From: Atopococcus tabaci DSM 17538
GTDB lineage: Bacteria > Bacillota > Bacilli > Lactobacillales > Carnobacteriaceae_A
Assembly (NCBI RefSeq): GCF_000429585.1
Contig: NZ_KE386923.1
Span: forward strand, 16,897 to 56,670
Length of the DNA stretch: 39,774 nucleotides
Direction: 5' to 3'
The stretch's first letter is position 1. The number at the start of each line of letters is the position of its first letter. Below are positions 35,141-39,774 of this stretch, in pieces. The notes beneath the pieces were generated by a model. It made no database searches and was not told the origin of the DNA. It saw nothing but the letters and a program-made list of their open reading frames with translations. A program made the translations under genes and the position numbers.

Positions 35141-35987
35141 TTACCTGAACTCTTCCACCGAAATGTCACGACCCAGGTAATCGAGGTAAATGTCGCCTAA
35201 TGTGCCGTCAGCCGTATTTTCACGGATGGATTCGTTCAGTGCGTCCGTCAATGCGTCGTCGCCTTTTGGCAGCACTCCTCCGATTTTATGAGGAATGGTC
35301 ATTTCTTCTTCAATCAAGTGAACCGGTGCATCCGGTTGGTTTTCCAAGTAATGCAACTGGCCCGTTTTGTCGGCCAAATAGAAATCTGCACGTTTTTGAA
35401 TCACCATCTGAATCGCTTCGTTCGCTGTTTCAATTGGGACAATTTCCGCGCCTACAGATTGGGCGGTTGCCCCTGTGGAAGTGTCAATGCTTTGTGCGGC
35501 TTTTTCCCCTTCTAAGTCAGCCATTGAATCAATGTCGCTGTCGTTGTGGACCAAGATGCCGTAAGTGGAACGGAAATAAGGATCGGTGAAGTTGTATCCT
35601 TCTGCGCGTTCCTCCGTTTTCCCCATGCTGTGCATGATCAAATCCACTCGTCCGGAATCCAGACTTGGAAGCAAAGAAGAAAAAGACATTTCAACAAATT
35701 CAACATCCACGCCCAAATCTTCGATGATGGCCCGCGTCGCATCCGCTTCGTATCCCACCAAATCACCTGTCACATCATCGTGGTAGTTGCTCGGTACAAA
35801 TCCTCCGGTAATCCCTACTCGGATCACTCCTGCTTCTTGGACCTCTTCTAAACTGGCATCTTCAGTGGTTTCCGCTGGTGCAGCAGATGTCTGTGCACTT
35901 CCTCCGGATGCCTCAGTTCCCCCGCCGCATGCCGCCAGCAGGAAGCTGAATGAAACCAATAAACCGGATAGTATATGTTTCTTCAAC
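35141..35987 (-). CDS. Amino acid ABC substrate-binding lipoprotein
   Basis: An intact 281-residue lipoprotein of the solute-binding family 3. The lipobox is LLAAC with Cys20, followed by a Gly/Ser/Ala/Thr linker. The binding domain begins VIRVGITGGFVPSNYHDD and has GYEADATRAIIEDLGV, VDLIMHSMGKTEERAEGYNF, and DFYLADKTGQLHYL. TTG at 35987 is chosen because it is preceded by AGAGGGG and followed by a proper signal peptide; a longer N-terminus would put unlikely residues before it. Its permease and ATPase are both broken, so it can import only if it uses another transporter. Confidence 0.82.
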
Positions 35988-36144
35988 CCCCCTCTTTTAA
36001 AAACAATTTTGTTTATGTCGGAAAAGAAAAAATTTATGGATATAGAACAGCATAAAACGGCTGTTTTTTTATTTTGCACATCGAAAGCAAACGCTGAACA
36101 AAACGTATTCATTAAAAACAGATGAAAAAACTTTAATTTTATTG

Positions 36145-36173
36145 TTGACTTTTCCTCACCGTACTTCTATACT
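36145..36173 (+). promoter_or_regulatory. Strong promoter of the aromatic leader and TrpXYZ-type operon
   Basis: TTGACT (36145-36150), exactly 17 bases, TATACT (36168-36173). This is the best sigma-A promoter in the window. It is followed by AGGAG and the leader start at 36206. Confidence 0.85.
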
Positions 36174-36205
36174 AAGCACATCAACTTTCAACAGGAGTGA
36201 TTGTC

Positions 36206-36277
36206 ATGTTAAATCAACTGAATAAAACCACACAATTGAATCACTTCTACTTTAGCTATTTTAGGTACTGTTTGTAG
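36206..36277 (+). CDS. Phe/Tyr-rich leader peptide (23 codons)
   Basis: A short ORF starting ATG with AGGAG 8 bases upstream. After MLNQLNKTTQL it ends NHFYFSYFRYCL. Three Phe and three Tyr codons fall within eight consecutive codons (36245-36268); the stop is TAG at 36275. The ORF is placed right after a consensus promoter and before a terminator with an alternative pairing. That is what is expected for a leader peptide that senses charged tRNA-Phe and tRNA-Tyr through ribosome stalling. The peptide itself need not have a function. Confidence 0.8.
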   Translation: MLNQLNKTTQLNHFYFSYFRYCL

Positions 36278-36456
36278 ACATGAGTTTTCATCATGGATAC
36301 AAACATCAGCGCAAACTGAGTTTTGTATCTATGATGGCTAAAGCAATTTGAGTTGATCAAATTTGGCCACATGGATTGAATAATCTAAGTGGTCAACCAT
36401 ACCAGCGACATTTGGCGCACCTATTTAGATTATTCTATCTAAATAGGTGCTTTTTT
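36270..36456 (+). promoter_or_regulatory. Transcription attenuator with competing hairpins
   Basis: Visible structures: (a) GTTTGTA at the leader stop (36270-36276) can pair with TACAAAC (36298-36304); (b) this competes with a 15-bp hairpin CATCATGGATACAAA / TTTGTATCTATGATG (36289-36336); (c) AATTTGA / TCAAATT (36345-36363); (d) a hairpin TTGGCCAC / GTGGTCAA (36363-36396) that hides GAATAATCTAA; (e) GAATAATCTAA (36378-36388) is perfectly complementary to TTAGATTATTC (36425-36435), the 5' arm of the terminator. Pairing (e) excludes terminator formation. No T-box consensus is present. Confidence 0.8.
36417..36456 (+). terminator. Attenuator terminator upstream of the TrpXYZ-type operon
   Basis: A perfect 14-bp stem GCACCTATTTAGAT / ATCTAAATAGGTGC with loop TATTCT, followed by six Ts, 55 bases before the first structural gene. 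Confidence 0.92.
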
Positions 36457-36510: not shown

Positions 36511-37491
36511 ATGGATAAGAAATGGTGGAAGAAAGCTTCAGCGTTGGTTTTGACAGGTATGGCAGGAATCACTTTGGCAGCGTGCGGCAGCGGTGAAACA
36601 GCTGCCTCAGGAGAAGAAACTACAAATGTGGGAATCCTGCAATTCATGGAACACAATTCTTTGACCGCTGCAAAAGACGGTTTTGTCAAAGAATTGAAAG
36701 ACGCTGGTTACACAGAAGGCGAAAACTTCTCTCTTGAAGTCATGAATGCACAAGGCGATCAAGCAAACTTAAAAAGCATGAGTGAACAACTAGCAAAAGA
36801 CAATGATCTGATGCTGGCCATTGCCACACCGGCCGCCCAATCGTTGGCAACCGTAGAAATGGACAAACCGATTCTCTTCACCGCTGTCACCGACCCGGAA
36901 GACGCCGGATTAGTGGAAAGTGCAGAGAAACCTGGGAAAAACGTCACCGGAACAAGCGATATGGTGCCGATTGAAGAACAAATTCAATTGCTTTTGTCCA
37001 TCAAACCAGAAGCAAAAACCATTGGAATCATCTACAATTCCAGTGAACCAAACTCAGAAATCCAAGCAAACTTAGCCATTGAAGAACTGGAAAAAGCCGG
37101 CGCCACAGCGCAAGTCTCCACCGTCACATCCACAAACGATGTGCAGCAGGTATTGACCAGTTTGGCTCAAGATGTAGATGCGTTATACATTCCAACCGAC
37201 AACACACTGGCAAGCACCGCCGCCACTGTAGGCGAGATTGCCACAGAATACAAACTTCCTGTAGTAGCCGGTTCAACGGAACAGGTAGAAGCAGGCGGTT
37301 TGGCCACATACGGCATCAATTACGAAGCACTCGGACGCCAAACAGCACAGATGGCGTTGGAAGTACTTGAAAACGATGCATCTCCGTCTGAAGTGGCTGT
37401 TGAAACGTCCGACCACTTGGAATTGTACGTCAACGAAGACATGGCAGAAGCGATTGGAATCGATCCGGACAGCATCACACTTCCGGAATAA
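36511..37491 (+). CDS. TrpX-type ABC substrate-binding lipoprotein
   Basis: A 326-residue lipoprotein of the ABC_sub_bind (DUF534) family, which in streptococci binds tryptophan (TrpX) and elsewhere other aromatic compounds. The signal peptide has the lipobox TLAAC with Cys25. Landmarks are NVGILQFMEHNSL, the LMLAIATPAAQSLA segment, KPILFTAVTDPEDAGLV and TIGIIYNSSEPNSEIQ. ATG with AGGGGG upstream, preceded by the attenuator. The leader peptide, rich in Phe and Tyr and without Trp, suggests an aromatic amino acid substrate such as Phe or Tyr rather than Trp. This is inference from regulation. Confidence 0.88.
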   Translation: MDKKWWKKASALVLTGMAGITLAACGSGETAASGEETTNVGILQFMEHNSLTAAKDGFVKELKDAGYTEGENFSLEVMNAQGDQANLKSMSEQLAKDNDLMLAIATPAAQSLATVEMDKPILFTAVTDPEDAGLVESAEKPGKNVTGTSDMVPIEEQIQLLLSIKPEAKTIGIIYNSSEPNSEIQANLAIEELEKAGATAQVSTVTSTNDVQQVLTSLAQDVDALYIPTDNTLASTAATVGEIATEYKLPVVAGSTEQVEAGGLATYGINYEALGRQTAQMALEVLENDASPSEVAVETSDHLELYVNEDMAEAIGIDPDSITLPE

Positions 37492-37505: not shown

Positions 37506-38435
37506 ATGGATTTATTGATGTCGAGTGTCTCTCAAGGGTTGTTGTGGTCTATCATGGCCATCGGAGTGTACCTCACGTACCGAATTTTAGATGTGGCGGA
37601 TTTAACGGCGGAAGGCAGCTTTCCTTTGGGAGCAGCCATCTGTACCAGCTTAATCGTCAACGGCGTCGCACCTTGGCTGGCGACGATGGCAGCCGTCATC
37701 GGCGGGATGGCGGCCGGGTTCATCTCAGGTTACTTGCACACCAAATGGAACGTCCCTGCCCTGCTTTCCGGTATTATCACCATGACGGGCTTGTACTCCA
37801 TCAATCTGCGCATCATGGGGCAGGCCAACTTGACCCTTCTCGGTGAAGAAACGTTAATCCGAACCGTTCAAAGTTGGGGACTCACGAGCACAAACGCCGT
37901 ATTGGTGGTCGGTTTGTTGGCGGCTGCGGGGGTCATTTTGCTCCTTCACTTGTTCTTCCACACTGAAATCGGTCTGGCAATCCGTTCCACCGGGGACAAC
38001 AATGAAATGAGCGAAGCCAACGGCATCCGGATCCATGCAATGAAAATCATCGGCTTTATGATTGGAAACGGCTTGATTTCCATGTCCGGAGCGCTGCTGG
38101 CTCAAAACAACGGCTATGCGGACATCAGCATGGGGATCGGAACCATCGTCATTGGCCTGGCGTCCATCATCATCGGAGAAGTGTTCTTCCGACATGTGAC
38201 CCTGGCAAAACGCCTGGCAACCATCGTCGTCGGTTCGGTGATTTACCGTCTCCTGCTGTTGTTGGTCTTGGAGATGAACGTCAACCCGCAAGATTTGAAA
38301 TTGTTCTCTGCCATTCTTCTTGCACTTGCATTGGGGCTTCCGGCAATTCAATCCCGTCTGCCGAAAAACAAAAAGCAACGTACACGTAAAAAAGCTAAAG
38401 CTAAAGGAGGCGCCCTCTCATGGATGCAGCGTTAG
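37506..38435 (+). CDS. TrpY-type ABC permease
   Basis: A 309-residue permease of the branched-chain/sugar permease superfamily with about eight or nine helices. Landmarks are DLTAEGSFPLGAA near residue 35 and GLAIRSTGDNNEMSEANGI near residue 160, characteristic of TrpY-type proteins. The C-terminal tail is very basic (KNKKQRTRKKAKAKGG) and overlaps the ATPase start by 16 bases. ATG with AAGGAGG upstream, 14 bases after the binding-protein gene. Confidence 0.88.
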   Translation: MDLLMSSVSQGLLWSIMAIGVYLTYRILDVADLTAEGSFPLGAAICTSLIVNGVAPWLATMAAVIGGMAAGFISGYLHTKWNVPALLSGIITMTGLYSINLRIMGQANLTLLGEETLIRTVQSWGLTSTNAVLVVGLLAAAGVILLLHLFFHTEIGLAIRSTGDNNEMSEANGIRIHAMKIIGFMIGNGLISMSGALLAQNNGYADISMGIGTIVIGLASIIIGEVFFRHVTLAKRLATIVVGSVIYRLLLLLVLEMNVNPQDLKLFSAILLALALGLPAIQSRLPKNKKQRTRKKAKAKGGALSWMQR

Positions 38436-39223
38436 AATTGAAACAAATCCATAAAATTTTCGAAGCTGGAACCGTAAATGAAAACCATGTGTTGAAAGGC
38501 ATCGACTTCACCGTTCAAAAAGGAGATTTCATCACCGTCATCGGCGGAAACGGCGCCGGAAAATCCACTTTCCTCAACAGTATCGCCGGCAGTTTCCCGG
38601 TGGACGAAGGCACCATTTTACTGGATGGACAGGACATCACTCACACTCCTGCCTATGAACGCGCAGCCCATATCAGCCGCGTGTTCCAAGACGCCAAAAT
38701 GGGAACGGCCACTCGTTTGACCATTGAAGAGAACCTGGCTGTGGCGTGGAACCGCGGAAAAAAACGCCGCTTCGCCTGGGGCATTAAAGAAGCACAGCGA
38801 AAAGTGTTCAAAGAAGAGCTCGAGAAACTGGACTTGGGATTGGAAGACCGATTAAAAATGGAAGTCGGCCTCCTTTCCGGTGGACAGCGTCAAGCTTTGA
38901 CGCTGCTGATGGCCACCCTCGTCGATCCCAAGTTGCTGCTGTTGGATGAACACACCGCTGCGTTGGATCCGAAAACAAGCCAAATGGTGTTGGATTTGAC
39001 CGACCGCATCGTCCAAGAAAAACAACTGACCACATTGATGATCACCCACAATATGGAACACGCCATCCAATATGGCAACCGGCTGATCATGATGAACAAC
39101 GGGCAGATTGTCGTAGACGTCTCCGGTGACGAGAAACAACAGCTGACTGTGCCGGATTTATTGGCTCTGTTCAAACAAAACAGCGGAAACGCCGTGATGG
39201 AGGACGCTTTGTTGCTGAGTTGA
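38420..39223 (+). CDS. TrpZ-type ABC ATPase
   Basis: A 267-residue ATPase with Walker A GGNGAGKST, Q-loop RVFQDAKMGTA, signature LLSGGQRQ, Walker B LLLLDEHTAALDP and H-loop MITHNMEHA. The DEHTAALDP form is typical of this importer family. ATG with AAAGGAGG 9 bases upstream inside the permease gene. Last gene of the operon; a strong terminator follows. Confidence 0.9.
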   Translation: MDAALELKQIHKIFEAGTVNENHVLKGIDFTVQKGDFITVIGGNGAGKSTFLNSIAGSFPVDEGTILLDGQDITHTPAYERAAHISRVFQDAKMGTATRLTIEENLAVAWNRGKKRRFAWGIKEAQRKVFKEELEKLDLGLEDRLKMEVGLLSGGQRQALTLLMATLVDPKLLLLDEHTAALDPKTSQMVLDLTDRIVQEKQLTTLMITHNMEHAIQYGNRLIMMNNGQIVVDVSGDEKQQLTVPDLLALFKQNSGNAVMEDALLLS

Positions 39224-39236
39224 CAAGAGCATGTCC

Positions 39237-39267
39237 AAGCGGCCGGAGTTTTTCCGGCCGCTTTTTT
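39237..39267 (+). terminator. Terminator of the TrpXYZ-type operon
   Basis: AAGCGGCCGGA / TCCGGCCGCTT perfect stem with a short loop and a T-run, 13 bases after the stop. Confidence 0.92.
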
Positions 39268-39465: not shown

Positions 39466-39774
39466 AACCCCTATGCCTTTAGGCTAGGGGATATAAGCCC
39501 TAATGACCTTGTTCTTGAATATATTTTTGGATAATCTCTTTGCTTACATTTCCAATACTACAAGAAAAATATCCATCACTCCAAAAGGTTCTTTCTTTCC
39601 AAAAATATTGAGAAAGATATTCGTTATGCTTTTGCCATATTCGATAGGTTGTAAGTTGCTTCAATAATCTAACGATTTCAAGAATACTCCATTTCGGAGA
39701 ATAACGAATCAAAATATGAATATGGTCTTGGTCTATTTCTTGCTCGATAATTTGCCAACCATAACGATTAGATA
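39466..39774 (-). mobile_element. IS200/IS605-family element, right end and transposase (cut by window edge)
   Basis: The subterminal hairpin CCCCTA-T-GCC / GGC-TAGGGG (39468-39490) lies 9 bases after the transposase stop, as expected for the recognised right end of these single-strand transposons. The element runs off the window at the higher coordinates. The exact left boundary near 39460-39467 was not determined. Confidence 0.75.
39500..39774 (-). CDS. tnpA: IS200/IS605 TnpA transposase (partial, N-terminus outside the window)
   Basis: The visible 91 codons belong to the small Y1 HUH transposase. The HUH metal motif is in DQDHIHILIRYSPKWS and the catalytic tyrosine region near the C-terminus is NVSKEIIQKYIQEQGH. 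The frame is open to the window edge and reads NRYGWQIIEQEI before the motif. It nicks and joins single-stranded DNA at the element ends. No tnpB is present on this side. Confidence 0.88.
   Translation of the reverse strand, partial: SNRYGWQIIEQEIDQDHIHILIRYSPKWSILEIVRLLKQLTTYRIWQKHNEYLSQYFWKERTFWSDGYFSCSIGNVSKEIIQKYIQEQGH

Follow-up and report, generated by a model that had tools for sequence, protein, structure and literature searches.

Evidence for a probable leader-peptide attenuator with Phe/Tyr codons ahead of a TrpX-like transporter operon of Atopococcus tabaci, and for its likely kinship with the trpB motif

The stretch of DNA analysed here (the window, 39,774 nucleotides from Atopococcus tabaci DSM 17538) carries a transporter operon coding for a TrpX-like substrate-binding lipoprotein, a permease and an ABC ATPase. 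The operon is preceded by a leader region with a short open reading frame rich in aromatic codons and an intrinsic terminator, the stop codon of the leader and the terminator being separated by 139 nt (Table 1). A preliminary description of this DNA had listed an AGGAG site, a 23-codon ORF with six Phe/Tyr codons among eight and a perfect 14-bp terminator, and all of these can be read exactly in the sequence. Its consensus promoter stands in part: a good match to both hexamers is present, but promoter-like sites are fewer in this region than in its shuffles and the site at 36145–36173 does not rise above the shuffled background. In addition, GAATAATCTAA (36378–36388), which sits inside a hairpin (36363–36396), is indeed fully complementary to TTAGATTATTC on the 5′ side of the terminator stem. 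The proposed competition of the leader stop region with a further hairpin is also borne out, as TACAAAC (36298–36304) is the partner of GTTTGTA (36270–36276) and also of the GTTTTGTATC stretch (36320–36329). Divergent from the leader and adjoining it lies an ABC operon which by eye is of the family-3 solute-binding general kind (35141–36112), and a partial ORF on the reverse strand at the right end of the window (39500–39772) resembles by eye an IS200/IS605 TnpA transposase.

Table 1. Features of the leader and of the transporter operon in the window (percentages are canonical pairing over 126 sequences)
Feature	Position	Strand	Remarks
Putative sigma-70-type promoter	36145–36173	+	TTGACT-17-TATACT; 10/12 consensus positions
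Shine–Dalgarno (SD) sequence of leader ORF	36193–36197	+	AGGAG; direct reading
Leader ORF	36206–36277	+	MLNQLNKTTQLNHFYFSYFRYCL*; 23 codons, ATG at 36206; kept in 126 distinct loci
Aromatic codon cluster	36245–36268	+	F-Y-F-S-Y-F-R-Y; Phe/Tyr in 6/8 codons
Segment 1′	36250–36259	+	CTTTAGCTAT; within aromatic codons; partner 4; 95%
Segment 1	36270–36282	+	GTTTGTA (36270–36276), extended; overlaps leader stop; partner 2; 96%
Segment 2	36292–36304	+	partner 1 or 3
Segment 3	36320–36329	+	partner 2; 96%
Segment 4	36327–36343	+	ATCTATGATGGCTAAAG; switch link; partner 1′ (95%) or 5 (91%)
Segment 5	36366–36376	+	partner 4 or 6
Segment 6	36378–36393	+	antiterminator strand; partner 5 or terminator 5′ arm (7)
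Intrinsic terminator (segments 7:8)	36417–36450	+	perfect 14-bp; TTTTTT directly after
Substrate-binding lipoprotein	36511–37491	+	ABC_sub_bind, TrpX-like; PF04392, E=1.5e-74
Permease	37506–38435	+	BPD_transp_2
ABC ATPase	38420–39223	+	
Terminator-like hairpin	39237–39263	+	closes the operon

With the lipoprotein as query, matches were obtained in 82 of 99 related genomes, and the same leader peptide was found upstream in 27 of 30 loci with the best TrpX-like matches. As these loci were found without an RNA model, they are the least biased evidence for the leader. Further loci were gathered by means of the Rfam model RF02863, bringing the total to 133 loci with 126 distinct leader sequences in Lactobacillales; most loci thus entered with a selection bias from which the 27 of 30 are free. 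The model itself covers the codons from the Phe before the Ser onward and excludes the start codon, the SD sequence and the upstream Phe/Tyr codons. Since it starts inside the ORF, the leader ORF is hidden in this record.

Each of the 126 aligned leaders has three to six Phe/Tyr within seven core codons, and an SD-led ORF with at least four Phe/Tyr in seven codons is found at 117 of the 133 loci, against 0.5 expected from dinucleotide shuffles. Leaders that keep the terminator and lose the aromatic codons would, according to the preliminary description, count against its interpretation; the terminator is present in 126 of 126 homologous leaders and none of them has lost the codons. The core peptide is x-[FY]-[FY]-F-S-Y-F-R with free exchange of F and Y, and Gly is the sole replacement of the core Ser. 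An Arg codon (mostly AGA), for which codon starvation does not account, closes the core in 122 of the 126 leaders, and the stop follows directly in about 90 of the 126 and three codons later in most others. A clear SD sequence is mostly absent from the Streptococcus leaders (L121, L182, L189 and others), which keep the ORF.

By an exact-pattern search the leader was found in named genomes of Enterococcus, Streptococcus (S. pneumoniae and S. mitis included), Tetragenococcus, Vagococcus and Lactobacillus, and also in Eubacterium multiforme and Clostridium moniliforme. Pattern matches in Brumimicrobium, a Deltaproteobacterium and two uncultured records are without leader context and look like chance. 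The model R1, for which Phe/Tyr leaders alone were used, was run against 398 genomes from the phylum. It matched the genome of the window, two further Lactobacillales genomes and a single genome from outside the order (G651), whose homologue, from Clostridia (L317), has the rewritten core IFFNNHFR*. One genome carries two tandem units of leader and TrpX-like gene (G022:C79:52125 and 55515).

The preliminary description could not see how the position of the ribosome is linked to the hairpin at 36363. This link is segment 4: it pairs either with segment 1′ or with the 5′ arm of that hairpin, and therefore a chain of eight segments joins the ribosome position to the terminator. The chain has two parities, as the helices 1:2, 4:5 and 6:7 leave the terminator open and the helices 2:3, 1′:4, 5:6 and 7:8 go with the closed terminator. 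Canonical pairing reaches the values given in Table 1 and 92% for 5:6, against at most 53% for slid-partner controls, and a 26-sequence alignment (A1) gave the same pairing counts for both states. Compensatory changes in 1′:4 lead from TTTAGC/GCTAAA to TACAGC/GCTGTR and to TTCGGC/GCCGAA and thereby alter Phe to Tyr and Ser to Gly; the Clostridia homologue keeps this helix through AATAACCAT/ATGGTTATT. When matched partners were compared with partners swapped between loci of less than 60% identity, the p-values, which ignore shared ancestry, were 1e-14 for 1′:4, 1e-5 for 4:5, 3e-23 for 5:6, 3e-44 for 6:7 and 1e-76 for 7:8, and the non-partner controls 5/7 and 6/8 were not significant in this test. 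The top eight co-varying of 12,090 column pairs all fall within predicted helices, the strongest co-varying pairs being 36282–36292 and 36279–36295 in helix 1:2. Co-variation served as a ranking only; our home-made phylogenetic null (substitutions on a FastTree tree) proved over-dispersed, and with it even clear-cut helices failed to reach E<1. The same ORF and antiterminator, for which the preliminary description had proposed a search in related genomes, thus recur at 126 distinct loci with co-variation in the tested helices.

The co-directional gene next behind the leader codes at all 133 loci for an enzyme of the aromatic pathway or for part of an amino-acid-type transporter. These targets are the TrpX-like binding protein (88 loci), shikimate dehydrogenase AroE (36), DAHP synthase (4), chorismate synthase AroC (1), a family-3 solute-binding protein (3) and a permease (1, L136) without match to the reference target proteins. 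In the named genomes shikimate kinase (AroK) is found behind the leader in E. florum and an SNF-family sodium symporter in two clostridial genomes, with a similar symporter in G651. The downstream genes fit a Phe/Tyr supply regulon. The position of the symporters behind leaders of this type outside Lactobacillales (L201, L229, L317) suggests that they import Phe or Tyr. The leaders that precede a family-3 solute-binding protein (L140, L169, L173) are from relatives in the same family, and in Tetragenococcus halophilus (L198) an IS200-like transposase gene, recognized by eye, lies between leader and expected target.

This arrangement bears on the filing of RF02863 as the E. faecium small RNA sRNA_2410. 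According to this filing the element would be a trans-acting small RNA and the terminator its mere 3′ end, and sRNA_2410 was indeed listed as a small RNA with two transcripts by Northern analysis (PMC5593968). The kind of gene that follows at every one of the 133 loci and the co-evolution of the antiterminator with the terminator are however at odds with this explanation, to which we give practically no credence.

The binding proteins themselves give a hint about the substrate. The lipoprotein of the window scores 323.5 bits with the TrpX equivalog NF041285 and is thus under the cut-off of 390, and its paralogue on contig C28, which is preceded by a Trp leader, is above the cut-off with 449.5 bits. 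A tree calculated for 113 binding proteins shows a single change of leader type, with all 25 Trp-leader proteins in one clade (support 1.0) and all 88 Phe/Tyr-leader proteins in the other. Judging from this split and from the scores, the transporter of the window most likely imports Phe and/or Tyr rather than Trp. The preliminary description had arrived at the same preference, with which the shikimate-pathway targets agree as well.

We suggest that the element is a ribosome-mediated transcription attenuator which senses the supply of Phe and Tyr through the leader codons. On the comparative evidence we hold this to be highly probable, and translation of the leader would very probably decide whether the transporter operon is transcribed. 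On a shortage of Phe- or Tyr-tRNA, the leading ribosome would stall on the aromatic codons with F14–Y18 in the A-site, and its footprint would mask segment 1′ and spare segment 1. The helices 1:2, 4:5 and 6:7 would then form, the terminator could not close and the operon would be read. When both Phe and Tyr are plentiful, the ribosome would reach the stop (36275), cover segment 1 and have left most of 1′, and 2:3, 1′:4 and 5:6 would form together with the terminator 7:8. For these A-site positions the leading edge would be at about 36258–36270, assuming that it lies ∼13 nt ahead of the first base of the A-site codon. The leader-peptide attenuation put forward in the preliminary description is thus supported and largely right; the stalling, the size of the footprint, the kinetics and the direction of the response we infer from comparative sequence.

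The spacing within the leader fits to this mechanism. The distance from the aromatic codon before the Ser (codon 0) to segment 1 is 19–20 nt in 115 of 126 loci, whereas segment 4 lies anywhere between 60 and 90 nt from codon 0 across the 126 loci, as would be expected if the ribosome serves as a ruler. Partition-function folding was run up to the end of segment 7. For the 126 sequences the mean predicted probability of the antiterminator is 0.49–0.58 with a stalled ribosome, 0.34 with the ribosome at the stop and 0.21 without ribosome, and the predicted value is higher for the stall than for the stop in 94 of 126 (p=2e-10). For the RNA of the window itself, equilibrium folding predicts 0.70 with Y18 in the A-site and at most 0.03 at F14–F16, because helix 2:3 is strong there. 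Therefore, the order of synthesis, with 1:2 formed first, would have to matter, and the equilibrium folding modelled for the earlier codons is a real weakness of the mechanism.

The strikingly conserved core [FY][FY]FSYFR with its end Arg (122/126) might also be taken as the sign of a TnaC-like arrest, in which the nascent leader peptide would stall the ribosome on free aromatic amino acid and not upon tRNA shortage. However, F and Y exchange freely, and the Ser is explained by the helix 1′:4, in which its change to Gly co-varies (GGC/GCC). Moreover, the Streptococcus leaders do not have QLN, L317 reads IFFNNHFR, and targets for uptake and biosynthesis fit derepression on shortage. We regard an arrest peptide as quite improbable and prefer stalling by tRNA shortage.

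A probable second element of this kind is the trpB motif (RF04312), which has been published as a strong riboswitch candidate, although its authors could not exclude an attenuator (PMC11109978). RF04312 matches occur in 160 of 295 Lactobacillales genomes, and in each of the 30 best matches (L031, L037–L065) a short ORF that carries Trp codons towards its 3′ end lies just upstream and falls outside the RF04312 model. The ORFs end in WQNWRR*, WQSWRR*, WQSR* and similar (pattern WQxWRR*), and a strict automatic test recognized 28 of 30, against 0.2 expected. The Trp leaders, too, commonly have Arg ahead of the stop. Outside the order, weak RF04312 matches (L032, L033, L035) lack a leader ORF of this sort and probably arose by chance. 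Behind the Trp leaders lie genes of the other, true TrpX clade in 24 of 28 cases and trpB in three (by eye from the sequence). The genome of the window has both types: locus L036 on contig C28 (23535–23651, reverse strand) is an RF04312 match with the Trp leader ORF MTHTDTIQLNSWQSH* upstream of the motif and the true TrpX paralogue behind it. Given the Trp ORF in 30 of the 30 best matches, we take the trpB motif to be, very probably, an attenuator with a Trp leader peptide.

Of 13 tested Trp-leader loci, R1 finds eight with E<1e-4, in register, and two more below 1e-3, and thus the Phe/Tyr and the Trp leaders are homologous families. The first Trp codon is 20–22 nt away from segment 1, which matches the Phe/Tyr ruler. 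In contrast to the Phe/Tyr leader the trpB motif has Trp codons, a shorter chain and the true TrpX clade and trpB as targets, and the window scores 32.1 bits with RF04312, under the gathering cut-off of 59; it is a sister and not a member. We consider it likely that the trpB motif and sRNA_2410/gbs2033 are one homologous attenuator family, whose specificity would have been switched between Trp and Phe/Tyr via the leader codons and in whose Phe/Tyr branch the ribosome would alternately mask two strands set by a fixed ruler.

The element as such has been seen before. In the window no Rfam family matches at the gathering threshold, and RF02863 is found only by an E-value search, with a full-length match of 56.2 bits (E about 1e-8, gathering score 61); in Lactobacillales, 48 of 198 genomes have a copy of the element above the cut-off. 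The window element corresponds to RF02863, which is filed as a small RNA and not as a leader. Judged from its context it is very probably also the "gbs2033 riboswitch" of 2015: like our element, the latter is conserved in Lactobacillales, precedes one member of a pair of paralogous ABC operons and shows early termination, but it was described as a riboswitch. That study reports short terminated RNA and long transcripts in S. agalactiae by RNA-seq at both operons of the pair, gbs2033 and gbs1262, and notes gbs2033-type elements ahead of aroFBC-tyrA of E. faecium (PMC4448216). The trpB motif is probably the gbs1262-type element.

Riboswitches for aromatic amino acids were proposed there on transcript and covariation evidence (PMC4448216), and the RNA structure with its terminator and antiterminator is in fact conserved. 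In such a riboswitch the RNA would bind Phe, Tyr or a precursor directly and the ORF would be incidental. Against this stand the matching codons in 126 of 126 leaders, the excess of SD-led ORFs and the sister family, in which Trp codons occupy this place and the targets are of Trp type. In addition, the Clostridia homologue rewrites the core sequence and keeps the pairing and the Phe codons, and the alternative helices account for all conserved segments. A metabolite riboswitch is thus improbable, and we favour attenuation by the translated leader. The word "peptide" is absent from the main text of PMC4448216, and a partial literature search found no description of a leader peptide for sRNA_2410/gbs2033 or for the trpB motif. 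Within the reach of that search, the proposed leader-peptide mechanism and the unification with the Trp family are new.

In Bacillota aromatic transport is usually controlled by T-boxes, for example, at trpXYZ of S. suis (PMC9382623). The covariance model of the T-box (RF00230) has no match in the window, and of the 19 T-box matches in the genome none is at either TrpX operon; we therefore reject a T-box. For the DAHP synthase gene aroF of Acholeplasma a Phe uORF followed by a terminator has been proposed (uORFC-13-1, PMC8632094); it is from another taxon and, going by its description, a different RNA.

In the trp, phe and his attenuators of enterobacteria a small ORF is translated that contains codons for the amino acid under control, and alternative hairpins and an intrinsic terminator go with it. 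These attenuators control the operon for the same amino acid, and the his leader also chains several hairpins. When the layouts are compared, the Lactobacillales leader differs in having mixed Phe/Tyr codons and in controlling uptake and shikimate genes. Its eight-segment chain has two strands that would be masked by the ribosome, 1′ in the codons and 1 at the stop, whereas the enterobacterial leaders have one.

Thus, a leader that fronts aromatic amino-acid genes in more than 100 related bacteria and had been classed, without an explanation, as a small RNA or a riboswitch receives a testable mechanism, and so does the trpB motif. For Enterococcus, Streptococcus, Tetragenococcus, Vagococcus and Lactobacillus, leader-peptide attenuation would be a routine way to control aromatic supply. 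Phe or Tyr is the predicted substrate of a widespread TrpX-like transporter, and to look for a free ligand of the trpB motif may be the wrong course. Changing the leader codons would be a way to retarget a regulator.
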